Source of the DNA: Serratia nematodiphila DZ0503SBS1
Lineage (GTDB): Bacteria; Pseudomonadota; Gammaproteobacteria; Enterobacterales; Enterobacteriaceae
Length of the DNA: 64,000 nt
Direction: 5' to 3'
Assembly (NCBI RefSeq): GCF_000738675.1
Contig: NZ_JPUX01000001.1
Location: forward strand, 1,860,001-1,924,000
Shown: positions 60,167 to 64,000 of the stretch, in pieces
Layout: every line of letters begins with the position of its first letter
Numbering within the stretch: the first letter of the stretch is position 1
Notes under the pieces: generated by a model
What the model was told of the DNA's origin: nothing
The model's input: the letters and a program-made list of their open reading frames with translations, nothing else
The model's database searches: none
Translations under genes and position numbers: made by a program

Positions 60167-60591
60167 GGGCATCCTTAGAGTGAGAGTCCTGTTGCCCAGT
60201 GTAAGTCCGGCGCGGCAGGAAGCAATCTTTTCAGCCTGTTTCCAGCGCCGGCTAACTGGTCGGATCTGAAATTTTCTTGGTTAATTACCTCTTAAGCTGA
60301 GAATTATCCTTCAAATAAATCATGGCTATTCCTGGGGTGGAATTAACTTTCATGTTTTTATAAGCAATTAAATTAGAATAGTCCTTATATCAAGCGTTAC
60401 TTCTTCCACTAAGCCTGCGGCGTAGTGTAAATAATTGTATTGATCTGCTTGTGCGAGAGGGCTATTCTTTTTCCCGCAGCGCTCTCATTGTTATCAATTA
60501 AATGTTTTTCAATGTATTGAAGAATTACTCTGTCTTACCGGCAGAGTGATGGGTAGTGTGTTTATATTTTAATATATATAAGGATATTGTA
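60167..60591 (+). promoter_or_regulatory. AT-rich leader region of the peptide cassette
   Basis: In 425 bp I see no gene of convincing size, and no candidate immunity ORF. The right 300 bp are much richer in A/T than the surrounding genome and must hold the precursor promoter; the 5' leader is AT-rich up to AAGGA before the ATG. Confidence 0.4.
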
Positions 60592-60795
60592 ATGAAGAAA
60601 ATCAATCTGTCTGAAGCGGAAAACATCGTCGGCGGTACTTTCGTTTGTTCCAAGGAATTTGCTTGGGTGGGAACCGGCAGCAACAGAACCTGTAACCTGG
60701 TGAAAACCTGCGCGGATAAGTTCGGCGGTGTGCAAAAGTATTATACGCCGGCACCTGCTGCGAGCTGCCCGACTAATCCAACCACGCCAAGCTGA
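60592..60795 (+). CDS. Double-glycine leader peptide, bacteriocin/microcin-like precursor
   Basis: A 67-residue peptide. The leader MKKINLSEAENIVGG ends with the Gly-Gly motif cut by C39 peptidases. The 52-residue core has four Cys (19, 34, 40, 59), an aromatic segment, a second GG at 45-46 and a Pro/Thr-rich tail (PAPAASCPTNPTTPS). AAGGA precedes the ATG; an in-frame GTG 36 nt upstream is less likely. It resembles the small DUF4762-type peptides of Serratia as I recall them (unverified). The downstream DsbA-like and C39-ABC genes support secretion and two disulfides. Toxin or signal role is not shown. Confidence 0.78.
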   Translation: MKKINLSEAENIVGGTFVCSKEFAWVGTGSNRTCNLVKTCADKFGGVQKYYTPAPAASCPTNPTTPS

Positions 60796-60811
60796 GGCGG
60801 GTAGACCGCCT
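60795..60811 (+). other. Hairpin over the precursor stop codon
   Basis: AGGCGG, GTAGA, CCGCCT begins at the last base of the stop codon. Together with the larger hairpin 20 nt on, it may protect the precursor mRNA 3' end or limit read-through. Confidence 0.4.
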
Positions 60812-60831
60812 GCATTTGGATGAACGGTGGG

Positions 60832-60862
60832 CAGGCGGGCAGCGTTCGCGCTGTCCCGCCTG
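60832..60862 (+). other. Strong hairpin between precursor and accessory genes
   Basis: CAGGCGGGCAGCG, loop TTCG, CGCTGTCCCGCCTG: a 13-bp stem with one bulged T and an exceptionally stable UUCG-type loop. No T run follows, so it looks like a transcript stabiliser or partial attenuator rather than a full terminator. Confidence 0.6.
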
Positions 60863-60972
60863 ATATCGGGTGAAGCAGTCGTCTTTAGCTTTTTATTATT
60901 TACGGTGTTAATTTTTTTACACACGTTCACTCTGTCAAGTGAATATTAATTAATGCGCAGGATGCGTCCGTT

Positions 60973-61638
60973 ATGTATAAACGTCCCTTGCTTTTTATCA
61001 GCTACACGCTCGTTATTATTTTCGCCTCTTCTTTTTTGACCGCGCTTTATTTCCAGCATTATGTTATGGCCTCGCCGGCGGCGGAAAGCCTGAGTTTTCT
61101 CTCTTCGGAAAAAGTCGAGCAAAGCCCGTTGCAAGACGACAATACGATTGTCGAAGTGTTCTCTTACGCCTGTCATTATTGTGAAGTCAATGAGAGCGGC
61201 GTGGCCGAGCTGGAAAAACGTTTACCAGCGGGTGCCAAATTGGTGCGTTTGCATCTCAGCGACGACGATCACGCCGGCATGGCGGCCTTTGCGCCCCTCT
61301 TCGCCACCCTGACGGTCATGGGGATCGAGGCGCAGCATCGTCCCGCCGCTTACCGCGCCATTATCAAAGAAAACCTCAATCTGGCGGATGAAAAGCAGCT
61401 CAGCGCCTGGTTGGAGGCCAACGGCATCGACGAGGCCGCTTATCAGCGGGCCAGAGATTCAGAGCGGGTCAAGGAACTGTTGGCGTATATGACGGCGGTA
61501 AGTCGCTATTACCAGGTCAATGCGACCCCCAGCTTTATCGTTAATCGCAAATGGCTGGCGTTGCAAGACCGCGAGTTTTCCGCTTTCAGCCAGCAACTGC
61601 TGTCGCTGTTGCAGCACGATAAGCCGCTGGCCCCCTGA
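60973..61638 (+). CDS. Membrane-anchored DsbA-like thiol oxidoreductase
   Basis: A 221-residue thioredoxin-fold protein. An N-terminal helix (about 7-29) anchors it with the domain in the periplasm. The active site is CHYC at residues 67-70 in VEVFSYACHYCEVN, and the cis-Pro loop is NATPSFIVN. A helical insertion (about 100-170) fits DsbA. It stands between the Cys-containing precursor and the exporter, so a dedicated role in forming the peptide disulfides is likely (inference). Its TGA overlaps the next ATG by one base. Confidence 0.82.
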   Translation: MYKRPLLFISYTLVIIFASSFLTALYFQHYVMASPAAESLSFLSSEKVEQSPLQDDNTIVEVFSYACHYCEVNESGVAELEKRLPAGAKLVRLHLSDDDHAGMAAFAPLFATLTVMGIEAQHRPAAYRAIIKENLNLADEKQLSAWLEANGIDEAAYQRARDSERVKELLAYMTAVSRYYQVNATPSFIVNRKWLALQDREFSAFSQQLLSLLQHDKPLAP

Positions 61639-62582
61639 TGCGCCTGCTCGCGGTTCGAGGCTATCTGGCCTGGCGTAACGGCCTGGACGCCGTGGCGCGT
61701 CTCTCGGCTGTCCGCACCGGGGTGAGCCGGAGTCTGACGTGCGCTCTGCTGCGCCGCATGGATTATCGCCTGTGGCTAAAGATGCAGAGGCGGTTGAGGT
61801 GGGGTCTGCAGCAACGCCGTTTTCGCCACCGGCAAGCGGTCGCTGAAGCGAATCGCCAAAGCCTGCTGGGGGAGGGCAAGCGGGACTTCGCCTGGCTGAT
61901 GCAGCGGCGGCAGTGGCTGGATTTGGCGGCGCTTCAGGCCCGCAACGCCGCGTTGATGGAACATTTGGCGCAGTGCACTTCACAGCTCAATCAGGTGGTG
62001 GAGCCGCTGCATCGCGCCGGGGTGCCGGTGTTGTTGGCGCCGATGCACACGGTTTCCGACGTGTTGGCGACGCTGGTCGGCGCGGGCGTTTATCCCGGGC
62101 GGGCAACGGTGATCGTTTCCGGCGACGCGCAGACGTTGGCGCGGCGAGCGCCTGAGGGGGAATGGCGGCAGCGGCTAGACTATTGCTCGATTCACGACGA
62201 TCCCCGGCATATTGCCGGCACCTTGTCGCAGGTGCTGCTGGAGGCGACGGAGCATCGGCGCAATATCATCCTCTTCCCGGACATCACGCCGGATTACACC
62301 TTGAACAGCACCCGGGACGCCTCGGCCAAACTGGCTTGCCGTTTGTTCAACCGGCCGGCGCATTTGCACAGCGGCATCGTTCGATTATCCCGGGCGATGC
62401 GGGCTCGGGTGGTGTGCTATTCGCTTTATTACGATCGCGGCGTTCGTATTCACATAGAGGAACCGATTGCCACGGAGCAGGTCGGCTGCGCCGTGCCGGA
62501 AATCGTCGAGCGCACCCTGCGGCGACATGCGGATGATTGGCTGCTGTGGCATTCGCACTCTTTATTTTTTATCAACGAATAA
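61638..62582 (+). CDS. LpxL-like acyltransferase homologue in the peptide cassette
   Basis: A 314-residue protein that resembles the lipid A/lysophospholipid acyltransferase fold. Seen: VPVLLAPMHTVSDVLATLVG with His137 and Asp141 (the family H-x3/4-D/E site), NIILFPDITPDYTL near 209, a hydrophobic strand pair SGIVRLSRAMRARVVCYSLY near 245, and a C-terminal ADDWLLWHSHSLFF recalling the WxxHxR-type end of LpxL. The N-terminus is very Arg-rich. No clear membrane helix. The assignment is moderate; an unrelated accessory protein is possible. It may acylate the exported peptide or alter the producer membrane. Confidence 0.5.
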   Translation: MRLLAVRGYLAWRNGLDAVARLSAVRTGVSRSLTCALLRRMDYRLWLKMQRRLRWGLQQRRFRHRQAVAEANRQSLLGEGKRDFAWLMQRRQWLDLAALQARNAALMEHLAQCTSQLNQVVEPLHRAGVPVLLAPMHTVSDVLATLVGAGVYPGRATVIVSGDAQTLARRAPEGEWRQRLDYCSIHDDPRHIAGTLSQVLLEATEHRRNIILFPDITPDYTLNSTRDASAKLACRLFNRPAHLHSGIVRLSRAMRARVVCYSLYYDRGVRIHIEEPIATEQVGCAVPEIVERTLRRHADDWLLWHSHSLFFINE

Positions 62583-62601
62583 GTCAGGGATATCACTACG
62601 C

Positions 62602-64000
62602 ATGGAAAACACCCTCCCTACGCCGGTCTTGCAGAACGAAATCAATGAGTGCGGGCTGGCCTGCATCGCCATGCTGGCGGAAACGCAGGGCGTTCGCGTG
62701 CCATTGACGGAACTGCGTGAGCGTTACCCCGCTTCGCAACACGGCACTTCGCTGGCGACGCTGTGCGCCATTTTAGGGGAGCTGGCGTTGCCGGCTTATC
62801 CGGTGGCGTTCGAGCACCGGGATCTGGCGGCGCTGCCTTTACCGGCGATTCTGCATTACGGCGCGGGCCACTATGTACTGCTGGCATATCGTCAGGGCGG
62901 TTACGTCTGCGTAATGAATCCGGCGTTGGGGCAACAGCTGCTGCCCTACGCCGCCCTGAAAGCGGAAATCAGCGGCTACGCATTGGTGCTCGATCGCGAC
63001 GATTTACCGTCCACCGCCCCCGCCCCCGCCGTGCGGAGCCGCCGACGGGGCGCTTTCGCCAGTTTAAGCCTGAAGGATACCGCCGGCATCGCCGGCATTT
63101 ATCGCCTGGCGGCGATGACGTTTCTTATCTCGCTGACGCTGTTCATCATGCCGATGATGGTCGCCAGCGCGATCAATCAGGTGTTCGCCATGGCTGGTGA
63201 GATCGCATTCCCTTACGCCTACTATCTGCTGGCGTTTGTGGCATCCACGGCGCTGGCTCTGATGGCGCGCATCATCACCGAGCGTTTTATCAAAAACTTC
63301 GTGTTGCTGCACGGCGCCGCCGGCTTTTCCCGCCTGTTGGAAAATTCGCTGAATTTCTTCAGCAAGCGCGCGCCCGGCGAGATTTTCAGCCGTTTCACCA
63401 GCTGGCAGATGGCCGCCGGCCAGAAAATCGAACTGGATAACGGCCTGCGCACCGACTGGATCATCGGAGCTATCGCACTGGCGGTGATGGGCTATTTGAG
63501 CCCGATGCTGGCGCTGGTGCCGGTTGTCGGCATGCTGCTGATGGGGGCGGTCAGCGTTTGGGCCATTTATCGCGATCGCCACTTCACCCAGCAGTTGCAG
63601 GTGAGAGGGGCGGCGCAGAATGATTTTATTCTGGAAACCATTCAAGGGTTTTCGACCATCAAGTCCGCCGGTTTGGCTGGCCAGCGGCAGGAAGGGTTCG
63701 CCGAATATGCCCGTTCGCTGTTCAACTGCCTGCAGCGGCAAAAAATCTATGAGCAGGTCAAGGGCAGCATTTATCAACTGATTGGCAGCCTGGAAATGGT
63801 GGTGTTCATGCTGCTGGCGTTGCCGTTGCTCAAAGGGGGCGAGCTCAGCCTGGGGGCCTTCTTCGCCTACAGTTTTCTGCGCGAAATCTTTACCTCTTAC
63901 ACCAGCAAGATCTTTTTTGCCGTCCTGCAGAAAAACCAACTGCACGTTATCGATGAACGTGCGCGGGATCTGTTTCCTGCCGTATCTCTGCGTACCGGGT
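62602..64000 (+). CDS. C39-peptidase ABC exporter, 5' part (bacteriocin transporter)
   Basis: 466 codons are visible; the gene runs off the window before the ATPase domain. Residues 1-130 are a C39 peptidase: Gln11 and Cys17 in LQNEINECGLACIA and His90 in GAGHYVLLAY. The expected Asp of DPxxG is Asn106 (MNPALG). From about residue 155 the membrane domain follows with about six helices (LAAMTFLISLTLFIMPMMVA and others) and the ABC exporter block PGEIFSRFTSWQ. It should cut the leader after GG and export the core. An adaptor and TolC-type partner would be needed in this Gram-negative cell. Confidence 0.9.
   Translation, partial: MENTLPTPVLQNEINECGLACIAMLAETQGVRVPLTELRERYPASQHGTSLATLCAILGELALPAYPVAFEHRDLAALPLPAILHYGAGHYVLLAYRQGGYVCVMNPALGQQLLPYAALKAEISGYALVLDRDDLPSTAPAPAVRSRRRGAFASLSLKDTAGIAGIYRLAAMTFLISLTLFIMPMMVASAINQVFAMAGEIAFPYAYYLLAFVASTALALMARIITERFIKNFVLLHGAAGFSRLLENSLNFFSKRAPGEIFSRFTSWQMAAGQKIELDNGLRTDWIIGAIALAVMGYLSPMLALVPVVGMLLMGAVSVWAIYRDRHFTQQLQVRGAAQNDFILETIQGFSTIKSAGLAGQRQEGFAEYARSLFNCLQRQKIYEQVKGSIYQLIGSLEMVVFMLLALPLLKGGELSLGAFFAYSFLREIFTSYTSKIFFAVLQKNQLHVIDERARDLFPAVSLRTG

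Follow-up and report, generated by a model that had tools for sequence, protein, structure and literature searches.

The window analysed here, a stretch of 64,000 nucleotides at G000:C1:1860001-1924000 of the two-contig genome of Serratia nematodiphila DZ0503SBS1, ends within an operon that joins a short peptide precursor to predicted genes for disulfide formation, acyl transfer and peptide export. A sequence-only reading of this DNA had described a double-glycine (GG) leader peptide with four cysteines, an anchored DsbA-like oxidoreductase, an LpxL-like acyltransferase homologue and a C39 peptidase/ATP-binding cassette (ABC) exporter as one bacteriocin- or microcin-type cassette. The open reading frames (ORFs) of the window, three of the four with Pfam matches, recover all four in a single operon on the + strand, at the positions of Table 1, with the start codon of the acyltransferase gene (ATG at 61638) overlapping the stop of the DsbA-like gene. 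The set as described stands but is incomplete, because the operon is cut by the window end at position 64000. On L005, the DNA stretch taken to read on past that position, the exporter gene continues in frame into its ATPase domain (ABC_tran, 100.7 bits), which rules out an unrelated ABC system. It is followed by the HlyD-family adaptor that the earlier reading had suggested looking for, here MacA-like, and then by genes for a MacB-like protein, an outer-membrane factor (OEP), an acyl carrier protein (ACP) and, just before the ACP, a ketosynthase. From the exporter to the ACP the genes run in one direction with short gaps or overlaps, and a tyrosine recombinase gene (PF00589) followed by fimbrial genes begins ~540 bp after the last of them. 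The operon holds nine genes from precursor to ACP in the window's genome and eleven in most relatives, where a MaoC-like gene and a reductase gene are also present.

Table 1. Features of the peptide operon and its left flank (plain numbers are window positions; L005 numbers refer to the stretch that continues it).
Feature	Position	Strand or direction	Basis
Left end of ~20.3-kb island and region 5' of the precursor gene	60167..60591	+	Homology break against cluster-free Serratia genomes G009 and G024
Precursor peptide, 67 aa, DUF4762 (PF15959)	60592..60795	+	ORF, Pfam, alignment of relatives
Predicted RNA hairpin just 3' of the precursor gene	60832..60862	+	RNA folding
DsbA-like thiol oxidoreductase, 221 aa	60973..61638	+	ORF, Pfam, structure alignment
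LpxL/LpxM/PatA-type acyltransferase (modelled), 314 aa, HX3D (His137, Asp141)	61638..62582	+	Relatives, model fold
C39 peptidase/ABC exporter, 5' part	62602..64000	+	Pfam; whole gene L005:4603-6732, 709 aa, ends at window-equivalent 64731
MacA-like adaptor	L005:6698-7900 (beyond window)	same direction	
MacB-like ABC protein	L005:7875-9848 (beyond window)	same direction	
Outer-membrane factor (OEP), NodT type	L005:9845-11224 (beyond window)	same direction	
FabF-like ketosynthase	L005:11227-12480 (beyond window)	same direction	
ACP, 80 aa	L005:12492-12734 (beyond window)	same direction	

The precursor has the GG leader and four cysteines first noticed in it: residues 1-15 form a leader ending in GG (14-15), and the 52-residue core (16-67) contains Cys19, Cys34, Cys40 and Cys59. 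A protein-family search places it in PF15959, or DUF4762, at 32.6 bits against a gathering cut-off of 27, and 34 of 36 aligned precursors match the same family at E ≤ 0.01. Its core has four lysines, at positions 21, 38, 43 and 49, of which only Lys43 is invariant among the relatives aligned. In 64 distinct precursors the GG (scored as G followed by G, A or S), Cys34, Lys43 and Gly45 occur without exception (64/64), and Cys19, Cys40, Cys59 and Asp42 occur in 59, 62, 63 and 57 respectively, counts that are biased, as the underlying hidden Markov model (HMM) was built from 13 motif-bearing peptides and starts were picked by GG. An AlphaFold model (predicted local distance difference test, pLDDT, 67.7) shows residues 18-26, 33-41 and 47-53 as strands and places Lys43 in the stretch that links the last two; searched against the PDB, it gave no match at E ≤ 0.001. 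In three Serratia comparisons the ratio of non-synonymous to synonymous substitution rates (dN/dS) of the precursor is 0.06-0.16, the mark of purifying selection.

The acyltransferase assignment comes from relatives and from a structural model. The 61638 protein itself (ACYLTRANSFERASE) has no Pfam match. Of 42 relatives aligned, 23 reach E ≤ 0.01 against PF03279 (Lip_A_acyltrans); P0061 scores 24.2 bits against a cut-off of 22.3, and the LpxL/LpxP family is named in five of nine E. coli records. The nearest relative, from Serratia marcescens, is 96% identical, and S. ureilytica gives the same value. When the model (pLDDT 84.6) was compared with the PDB, 14 structures matched at E ≤ 0.001, every one of them PatA or LpxM, with E ≤ 9.2e-8, template modelling (TM) scores of 0.48-0.52 on the query and root-mean-square deviations of 5.3-7.1. 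His137 and Asp141 are invariant across relatives down to ~20% identity, and the motif HX3D is found in 68/68 copies examined, HX4D/E in 0/68, both counts including two loci fetched twice (L084 = L055, L085 = L034). The protein is modelled with an LpxM/PatA-type fold, in keeping with the homology first proposed for it. It resembles LpxL/LpxM and PatA (PDB 5kn7, 5knk, 5oce, 5f2z) in this predicted fold and in a conserved His-Asp motif, and differs from them in the HX3D spacing, in an identity of 12-14% over the 14 matches and in being embedded in a peptide operon. LpxL-type enzymes are known to acylate lipids, and PatA a glycolipid.

This gene set recurs widely, in enteric as well as environmental bacteria. 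A scan that took 18 diverse proteins related to the 61638 protein as queries and covered 84,980 species at one genome per species (possibly without records close to the window's genome) yielded at least 52 confirmed loci from 80 candidate stretches, in Serratia, Yersinia, Rahnella, Ewingella, Hafnia, Providencia, Enterobacter, Citrobacter, Trabulsiella, Pantoea, Erwinia and other genera. Relatives of the acyltransferase also occur in 14 of 72,556 plasmid records and in 9/5426 complete E. coli genomes, always on plasmids; six of the 14 plasmid records and one further E. coli plasmid were examined. HMMs built from the operon annotated 58 loci and later 16 more stretches, and 67 loci were tabulated. 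The usual order is DsbA, LpxL-type enzyme, C39 exporter, MacA, MacB, OEP, ketosynthase (KS), MaoC-like protein, ACP and ketoreductase (KR); in a second, pE41-type order the genes from MacA to KR come first and the LpxL-type and C39 genes follow. Strong precursor homologues were found in 51 of the 58 loci, nearly always directly upstream of the DsbA gene (in L089, between the LpxL-type and C39 genes), so the precursor family does stand beside C39 exporters. Three precursors of pE41-type clusters also keep the K-D-G (K-x-G) motif although they were picked out independently of the HMM, that of L072 by eye and those of L099 and L100 by a leader rule. Given the PF15959 match above cut-off and the conserved order across loci, the gene set is not a product of chance. 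Among 343 genomes of the family, PF15959 occurs in 36, the acyltransferase in 41 and both in 35 (Fisher p 1.8e-40, in related genomes that are not independent), and 41 of 47 PF15959 matches lie 0.72-1.24 kb from an acyltransferase gene. The sixth of the matches far from one lies in G614, a 73%-complete genome. Some loci have tandem and dispersed extra precursors. Seven orphan DUF4762 precursors were seen in five genomes (L090-L094, with two each in L093 and L094), far from any acyltransferase cluster, and those of L090 and L092 precede short hydrophobic ORFs that have a common start.

With ketosynthase and ACP genes in its operon, the acyltransferase belongs to an acyl-chain set. The smallest cluster, L083, from a genome of another family of the order (G033), consists of the precursor, the LpxL-type gene, C39, MacA and MacB, with no HMM match for DsbA, KS, MaoC-like protein, ACP, KR or OEP. 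Since L083 keeps the acyltransferase without fatty-acid genes, the enzyme appears to serve the peptide rather than those genes, the strongest such indication from sequence, and in L083 it would presumably draw on host acyl-ACP. A search for still remoter relatives across the class, at E ≤ 1e-8, returned one of 369 genomes, the window's own; a search of the family of G033 returned G033 alone, and a protein database gave four proteins, the query included.

In 67 loci the ketosynthase was found 66 times, the MaoC-like gene 60 times and the FabG-like reductase (KR) 59 times, and both the DS[LIV] motif of the ACP and the Cys motif of the ketosynthase are present in 68/68 copies, the same two loci again counting twice. 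The idea that the fatty-acid genes of the window's group are decaying was considered and rejected: its KS and ACP keep their active-site motifs, and dN/dS is 0.09-0.23 in the comparisons that gave an estimate (for the ACP, not against L021; the KS ORFs may include an overlapping upstream stretch).

Cysteine content follows the oxidoreductase. The window's DsbA-like protein matches PF01323 (47.8 bits, cut-off 25.6) and has an N-terminal hydrophobic stretch, in keeping with its reading as an anchored enzyme, together with a CHYC active site and a T-P loop, and it aligns with solved DsbA chains. CxxC is present in all 57 DsbA-like relatives of at least 180 aa, as CHYC in 47 of them. A recognised precursor occurs in 54 of 57 DsbA-bearing loci, which together hold 56 precursors, each with 4-6 core cysteines; of ten loci without a DsbA match (L050, cut by a contig end, included) six have a precursor, with 0, 2, 2, 2, 2 and 2 core cysteines. 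On the LpxL tree these low-cysteine loci occupy two unconnected positions and so amount to two contrasts rather than six (L083 is a long branch of unsure placement). A pair of two-cysteine Rahnella precursors have lost Cys19 and Cys40 together and kept Cys34 and Cys59, which, with the agreeing strand register of the model judged by inspection, suggests the disulfides Cys19-Cys40 and Cys34-Cys59. A 186-nt stretch between the precursor and DsbA genes (window 60790-60975) is predicted to fold strongly, at -63.8 kcal/mol (z -2.68), and its hairpin may be an attenuator or a processing site.

The export genes point to two steps. The exporter was correctly recognised as a C39 peptidase with an ABC transmembrane region from 62602 onwards. 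Its catalytic Cys and His are present in the window, but an Asn stands 16 residues after the His, at the spacing of CvaB His105-Asp121, so that the Cys/His/Asp triad is lacking. The third residue is Asn (NPAxG) in 51 of 52 matched copies (61 examined), an assignment that rests on spacing because a PDB search with the transporter printed alignments to P-glycoprotein chimaeras only. A survey of class II microcins kept only transporters with Cys/His/Asp, and its text does not contain the word "Serratia" (PMC9746304); this filter may be the reason why these clusters went unreported there. The adaptor scores 301.5 bits against PRK11578 (cut-off 342) and 51.4 against the HlyD type I model TIGR01843 (cut-off 208.65). 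The MacB-like protein matches MacB_PCD (127.5 bits) and FtsX (66.9) over their cut-offs and PRK10535 at 727.8, below the equivalog cut-off of 966, and the outer-membrane factor matches NodT (234.8, cut-off 210.05). Taken together, these matches supply the MacB-type ABC protein, MacA-type adaptor and outer-membrane factor of a predicted MacAB-OEP tripartite pump. A microcin normally leaves by a C39-ABC transporter, a fusion protein and TolC (PMC9746304); the E. coli heat-stable enterotoxin STII receives two disulfides from Dsb in the periplasm and then exits by MacAB-TolC (PMC5985334). Because a periplasmic DsbA and a MacB share the operon, and MacB handles periplasmic substrates, the peptide would likely make a periplasmic stop. 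Its predicted route resembles that of STII, a two-disulfide peptide oxidised in the periplasm and expelled by MacAB and an outer-membrane duct, and differs in that STII uses Sec, host Dsb and TolC whereas C39-ABC, DsbA, MacAB and OEP all lie in this operon (PMC5985334); the likeness drawn here is one of function.

On balance we lean towards the view that the operon makes a ribosomal peptide that is acylated by the LpxL-type enzyme, trimmed and exported by C39, oxidised by DsbA and expelled by MacAB-OEP. The ketosynthase, helped in most relatives by KR and the MaoC-like protein, would build or edit an acyl chain on the dedicated ACP, from which the LpxL/PatA-type enzyme would move it to the precursor at the cytoplasmic face. 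We infer acylation of the precursor from sequence, and the acylated residue would most likely be Lys43, the sole invariant core lysine, set in the turn of the predicted beta-hairpin. The C39 transporter would then cut after GG and carry the core to the periplasm; the anchored DsbA-like enzyme would make Cys19-Cys40 and Cys34-Cys59, pairings with comparative support; and MacA-MacB-OEP, by analogy with STII export, would take the folded peptide from the periplasm through the outer membrane. Once released, the lipopeptide may act at the cell surface or on neighbours. As to its use, an antibacterial role and a fimbria-linked role in colonisation or biofilm seem to us equally plausible and equally tentative, and some other use seems unlikely.

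Several observations weigh against this proposal. First, its central reaction would be atypical: to our knowledge a peptide substrate for an LpxL-type enzyme would be unprecedented, and HX3D is one residue shorter than HX4D/E, the usual LpxL/LpxM catalytic motif. The case for Lys43 is tempered by D-x-x-G turns, which can be conserved for structure alone, by the modest confidence of the precursor model and by the biased conservation counts noted above. Second, the peptide is not always in evidence. Seven of 67 loci have no recognised precursor (L050, which is cut by a contig end, L053, L073, L088, L069, L070 and L071), among them the DsbA-bearing plasmid clusters L069, L070 and L071, and none was seen in L103, viewed separately. 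The zero-cysteine L083 peptide is a weak HMM match (9.1 bits) accepted on its GG leader and position, the evidence from L083 is limited by a contig that starts 3.4 kb upstream of the precursor, and five- and six-cysteine cores fit no simple two-disulfide rule. Third, the acyl-chain set is uneven: the window's Serratia group lacks the MaoC-like gene and the reductase in 6/6 loci, support for the MaoC assignment is slight (L026 28.6 bits, L063 24.6 bits and no match in L069, cut-off 27), and its active-site pattern is matched in 47/62 copies. Other site patterns are also incomplete, namely the first His of the ketosynthase (57/68), the C39 Cys (54/61), the MacB Walker A (62/65) and the DsbA cis-Pro (37/57).

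The precursor-less condition is shared by the E. coli and Salmonella plasmid clusters (L069, L070, L103, L104 and L071), which have the export and acyl set with no precursor found. Upstream annotations in L069 and L104 include insertion sequences, and in Salmonella the cluster is broken up. In L070 and L104, CS22/SEF14-type fimbrial genes lie ~12 kb upstream of the cluster.

Fimbrial genes are also the basis of an alternative in which the peptide is part or helper of a fimbrial colonisation system, in adhesion, biofilm or host-facing signalling, whatever its chemistry. Of 69 loci, 30 have a chaperone-usher operon upstream of the cluster and on its strand, with usher and chaperone confirmed by Pfam in both loci tested (L063 and L026). 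These loci fall in two clades of the LpxL tree, at least three changes being needed, and three lineages have a cluster joined to such an operon. In 16 of the usher-linked loci a protein of ~220 aa lies between the fimbrial operon and the precursor (e.g., L063:8146-8802); a LuxR-type regulator label for it was dropped for want of a Pfam match. In Serratia the linkage is physical: the LpxL-type gene is present in 11 of 30 genomes, exactly those with a FimB-like gene (≥ 93% identity, 8.6-8.7 kb away), and 15 others have the flanking LysR gene and neither of the two, some of them carrying 58-64% identical recombinases elsewhere. Cluster and fimbrial operon share an island of ~20.3 kb, from window ~60167 to G000:C1:1940453: homology to the cluster-free genomes G009 and G024 is lost at window ~60166 and regained at L106 position 9954, and at the empty site of these genomes the two island ends are ~106 bp apart after the LysR gene. 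Besides the peptide cluster, the island contains the FimB-like recombinase, so called by its place, another tyrosine recombinase, two regulators of the LuxR family and the fimbrial operon, whose usher matches PF00577 at 657.8 bits. Inverted repeats at L106:1347-1371 and 1644-1668 (25 nt, 84%), between the FimB-like and fimbrial subunit genes, resemble a phase-variation switch. Set against this linkage, 39 of 69 loci have no usher within the DNA examined (flanks of mostly ~10 kb, by which the window's own downstream usher was missed), and the usher counts are raw figures from an order, the Enterobacterales, where chaperone-usher operons are common and some linkage is expected by chance. A peptide that is part or helper of a fimbrial system seems to us somewhat unlikely.

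It is also conceivable that the acyl genes act on an envelope lipid, in an aryl-polyene-like manner or as lipid A self-protection, and that the peptide is just trimmed, oxidised and exported. The LpxL-type fold predicted for the acyltransferase would suit such a target; the E. coli aryl polyene cluster combines KS, dehydratase (DH), KR and ACP with acyltransferases proposed to anchor the product on lipid (PMC8253772); and with no immunity candidate found, the lipid change could itself be the protection. The tight linkage of PF15959 to the acyltransferase speaks against this, as does L083, in which the precursor and the LpxL-type gene persist while KS, ACP and KR gave no match, and we judge a lipid target unlikely. 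An aryl polyene cluster proper can be rejected, several defining genes being absent: the type II KS/DH/KR/ACP set and the acyltransferase are alike (PMC8253772), whereas the operon genes of the window genome and of the E. coli plasmid AP026448.1, among which the aryl polyene genes were looked for, hold no second ketosynthase (chain-length factor), acyl-ACP synthetase or ligase, thioesterase or resistance-nodulation-division (RND) exporter and have a peptide precursor instead.

An ordinary class II microcin, that is, an antibacterial peptide with C39 export, auxiliary other genes and an unrecognised immunity gene, is in our estimation quite improbable. The short GG-leader precursor and C39-ABC exporter are shared with class II microcins of Enterobacterales (PMC9746304), and the patchy distribution in Serratia, the plasmid copies, the extra precursors and the hydrophobic ORFs after orphans L090 and L092 would all fit. 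Unlike those microcins, the system here has a MacA-type adaptor, MacB, its own outer-membrane factor, a private DsbA, acyl-chain genes and the C39 Asn, which the survey's filter would drop (PMC9746304). The earlier suggestion that an immunity gene might lie past the window end led to no candidate in the clusters and flanks examined. Same-strand ORFs of 35-220 aa in or within 1.5 kb of 67 clusters formed ten groups present in at least three loci, none recognised as immunity-like; they were fimbrial or recombinase genes, the ~220-aa protein, a chemotaxis-like protein (named by eye) and short ORFs of uncertain status, one of them an 83-aa ORF directly before the precursor in L036 (8589-8840), L038 and L040. 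Flank ORFs of 32 representative loci gave none among their 14 largest groups, many of them on the other strand. An immunity gene confined to single loci, or one among the ORFs after the orphans, is still conceivable. The purifying selection on the precursor is unlike that of a peptide in an arms race, and this, the missing immunity candidate and the adjoining chaperone-usher operons leave the label "bacteriocin" unproven.

The closest chemical parallels to an acylated peptide are lipidated lanthipeptides. A 2026 preprint names selidamides (kamptornamide, phaeornamide, nostolysamides), goadvionins, lipoavitides and microvionin as acylated by GNATs (PMC13060382). The peptide described here would resemble these GNAT-lipidated ribosomally synthesised and post-translationally modified peptides (RiPPs) as a ribosomal peptide predicted to be fatty-acylated, on a Lys side chain as in nostolysamides, and goadvionin, by a title in the reference list of the same source, joins a polyketide moiety to a peptide (PMC13060382). 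It differs in an acyltransferase of LpxM/PatA fold and in predicted disulfides in place of lanthionines, and the operon proteins scanned contain no GNAT match and no lanthionine synthetase. In the literature searched, 5.39 million papers that did not cover bioRxiv outside PMC and most subscription papers, "DUF4762" occurs in no paper. Neither a description of this gene set, looked for in titles and abstract openings, nor a report that an LpxL-type enzyme takes a ribosomal peptide as substrate was found. The locus probably encodes a new variant of lipidated ribosomal peptide. The fuller claim of a new class, with an acyl chain from a miniature fatty-acid synthase, LpxL-type transfer to the invariant Lys, two-step export and deployment with fimbriae, is one that we advance tentatively, as a real possibility short of a probable one.

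If this proposal is true, evolution has turned the family of lipid A acyltransferases to the labelling of a peptide; RiPP chemistry would gain a further enzyme family, and DUF4762 a function. PF15959 beside an LpxL-type gene would be a readable sign for lipopeptides in Enterobacterales, and the C39, DsbA and MacAB-OEP genes would make up a complete two-step route for peptide export whose steps can be deleted one by one. Finally, the islands common to the cluster and fimbriae raise the question of whether lipopeptide release belongs to attachment.

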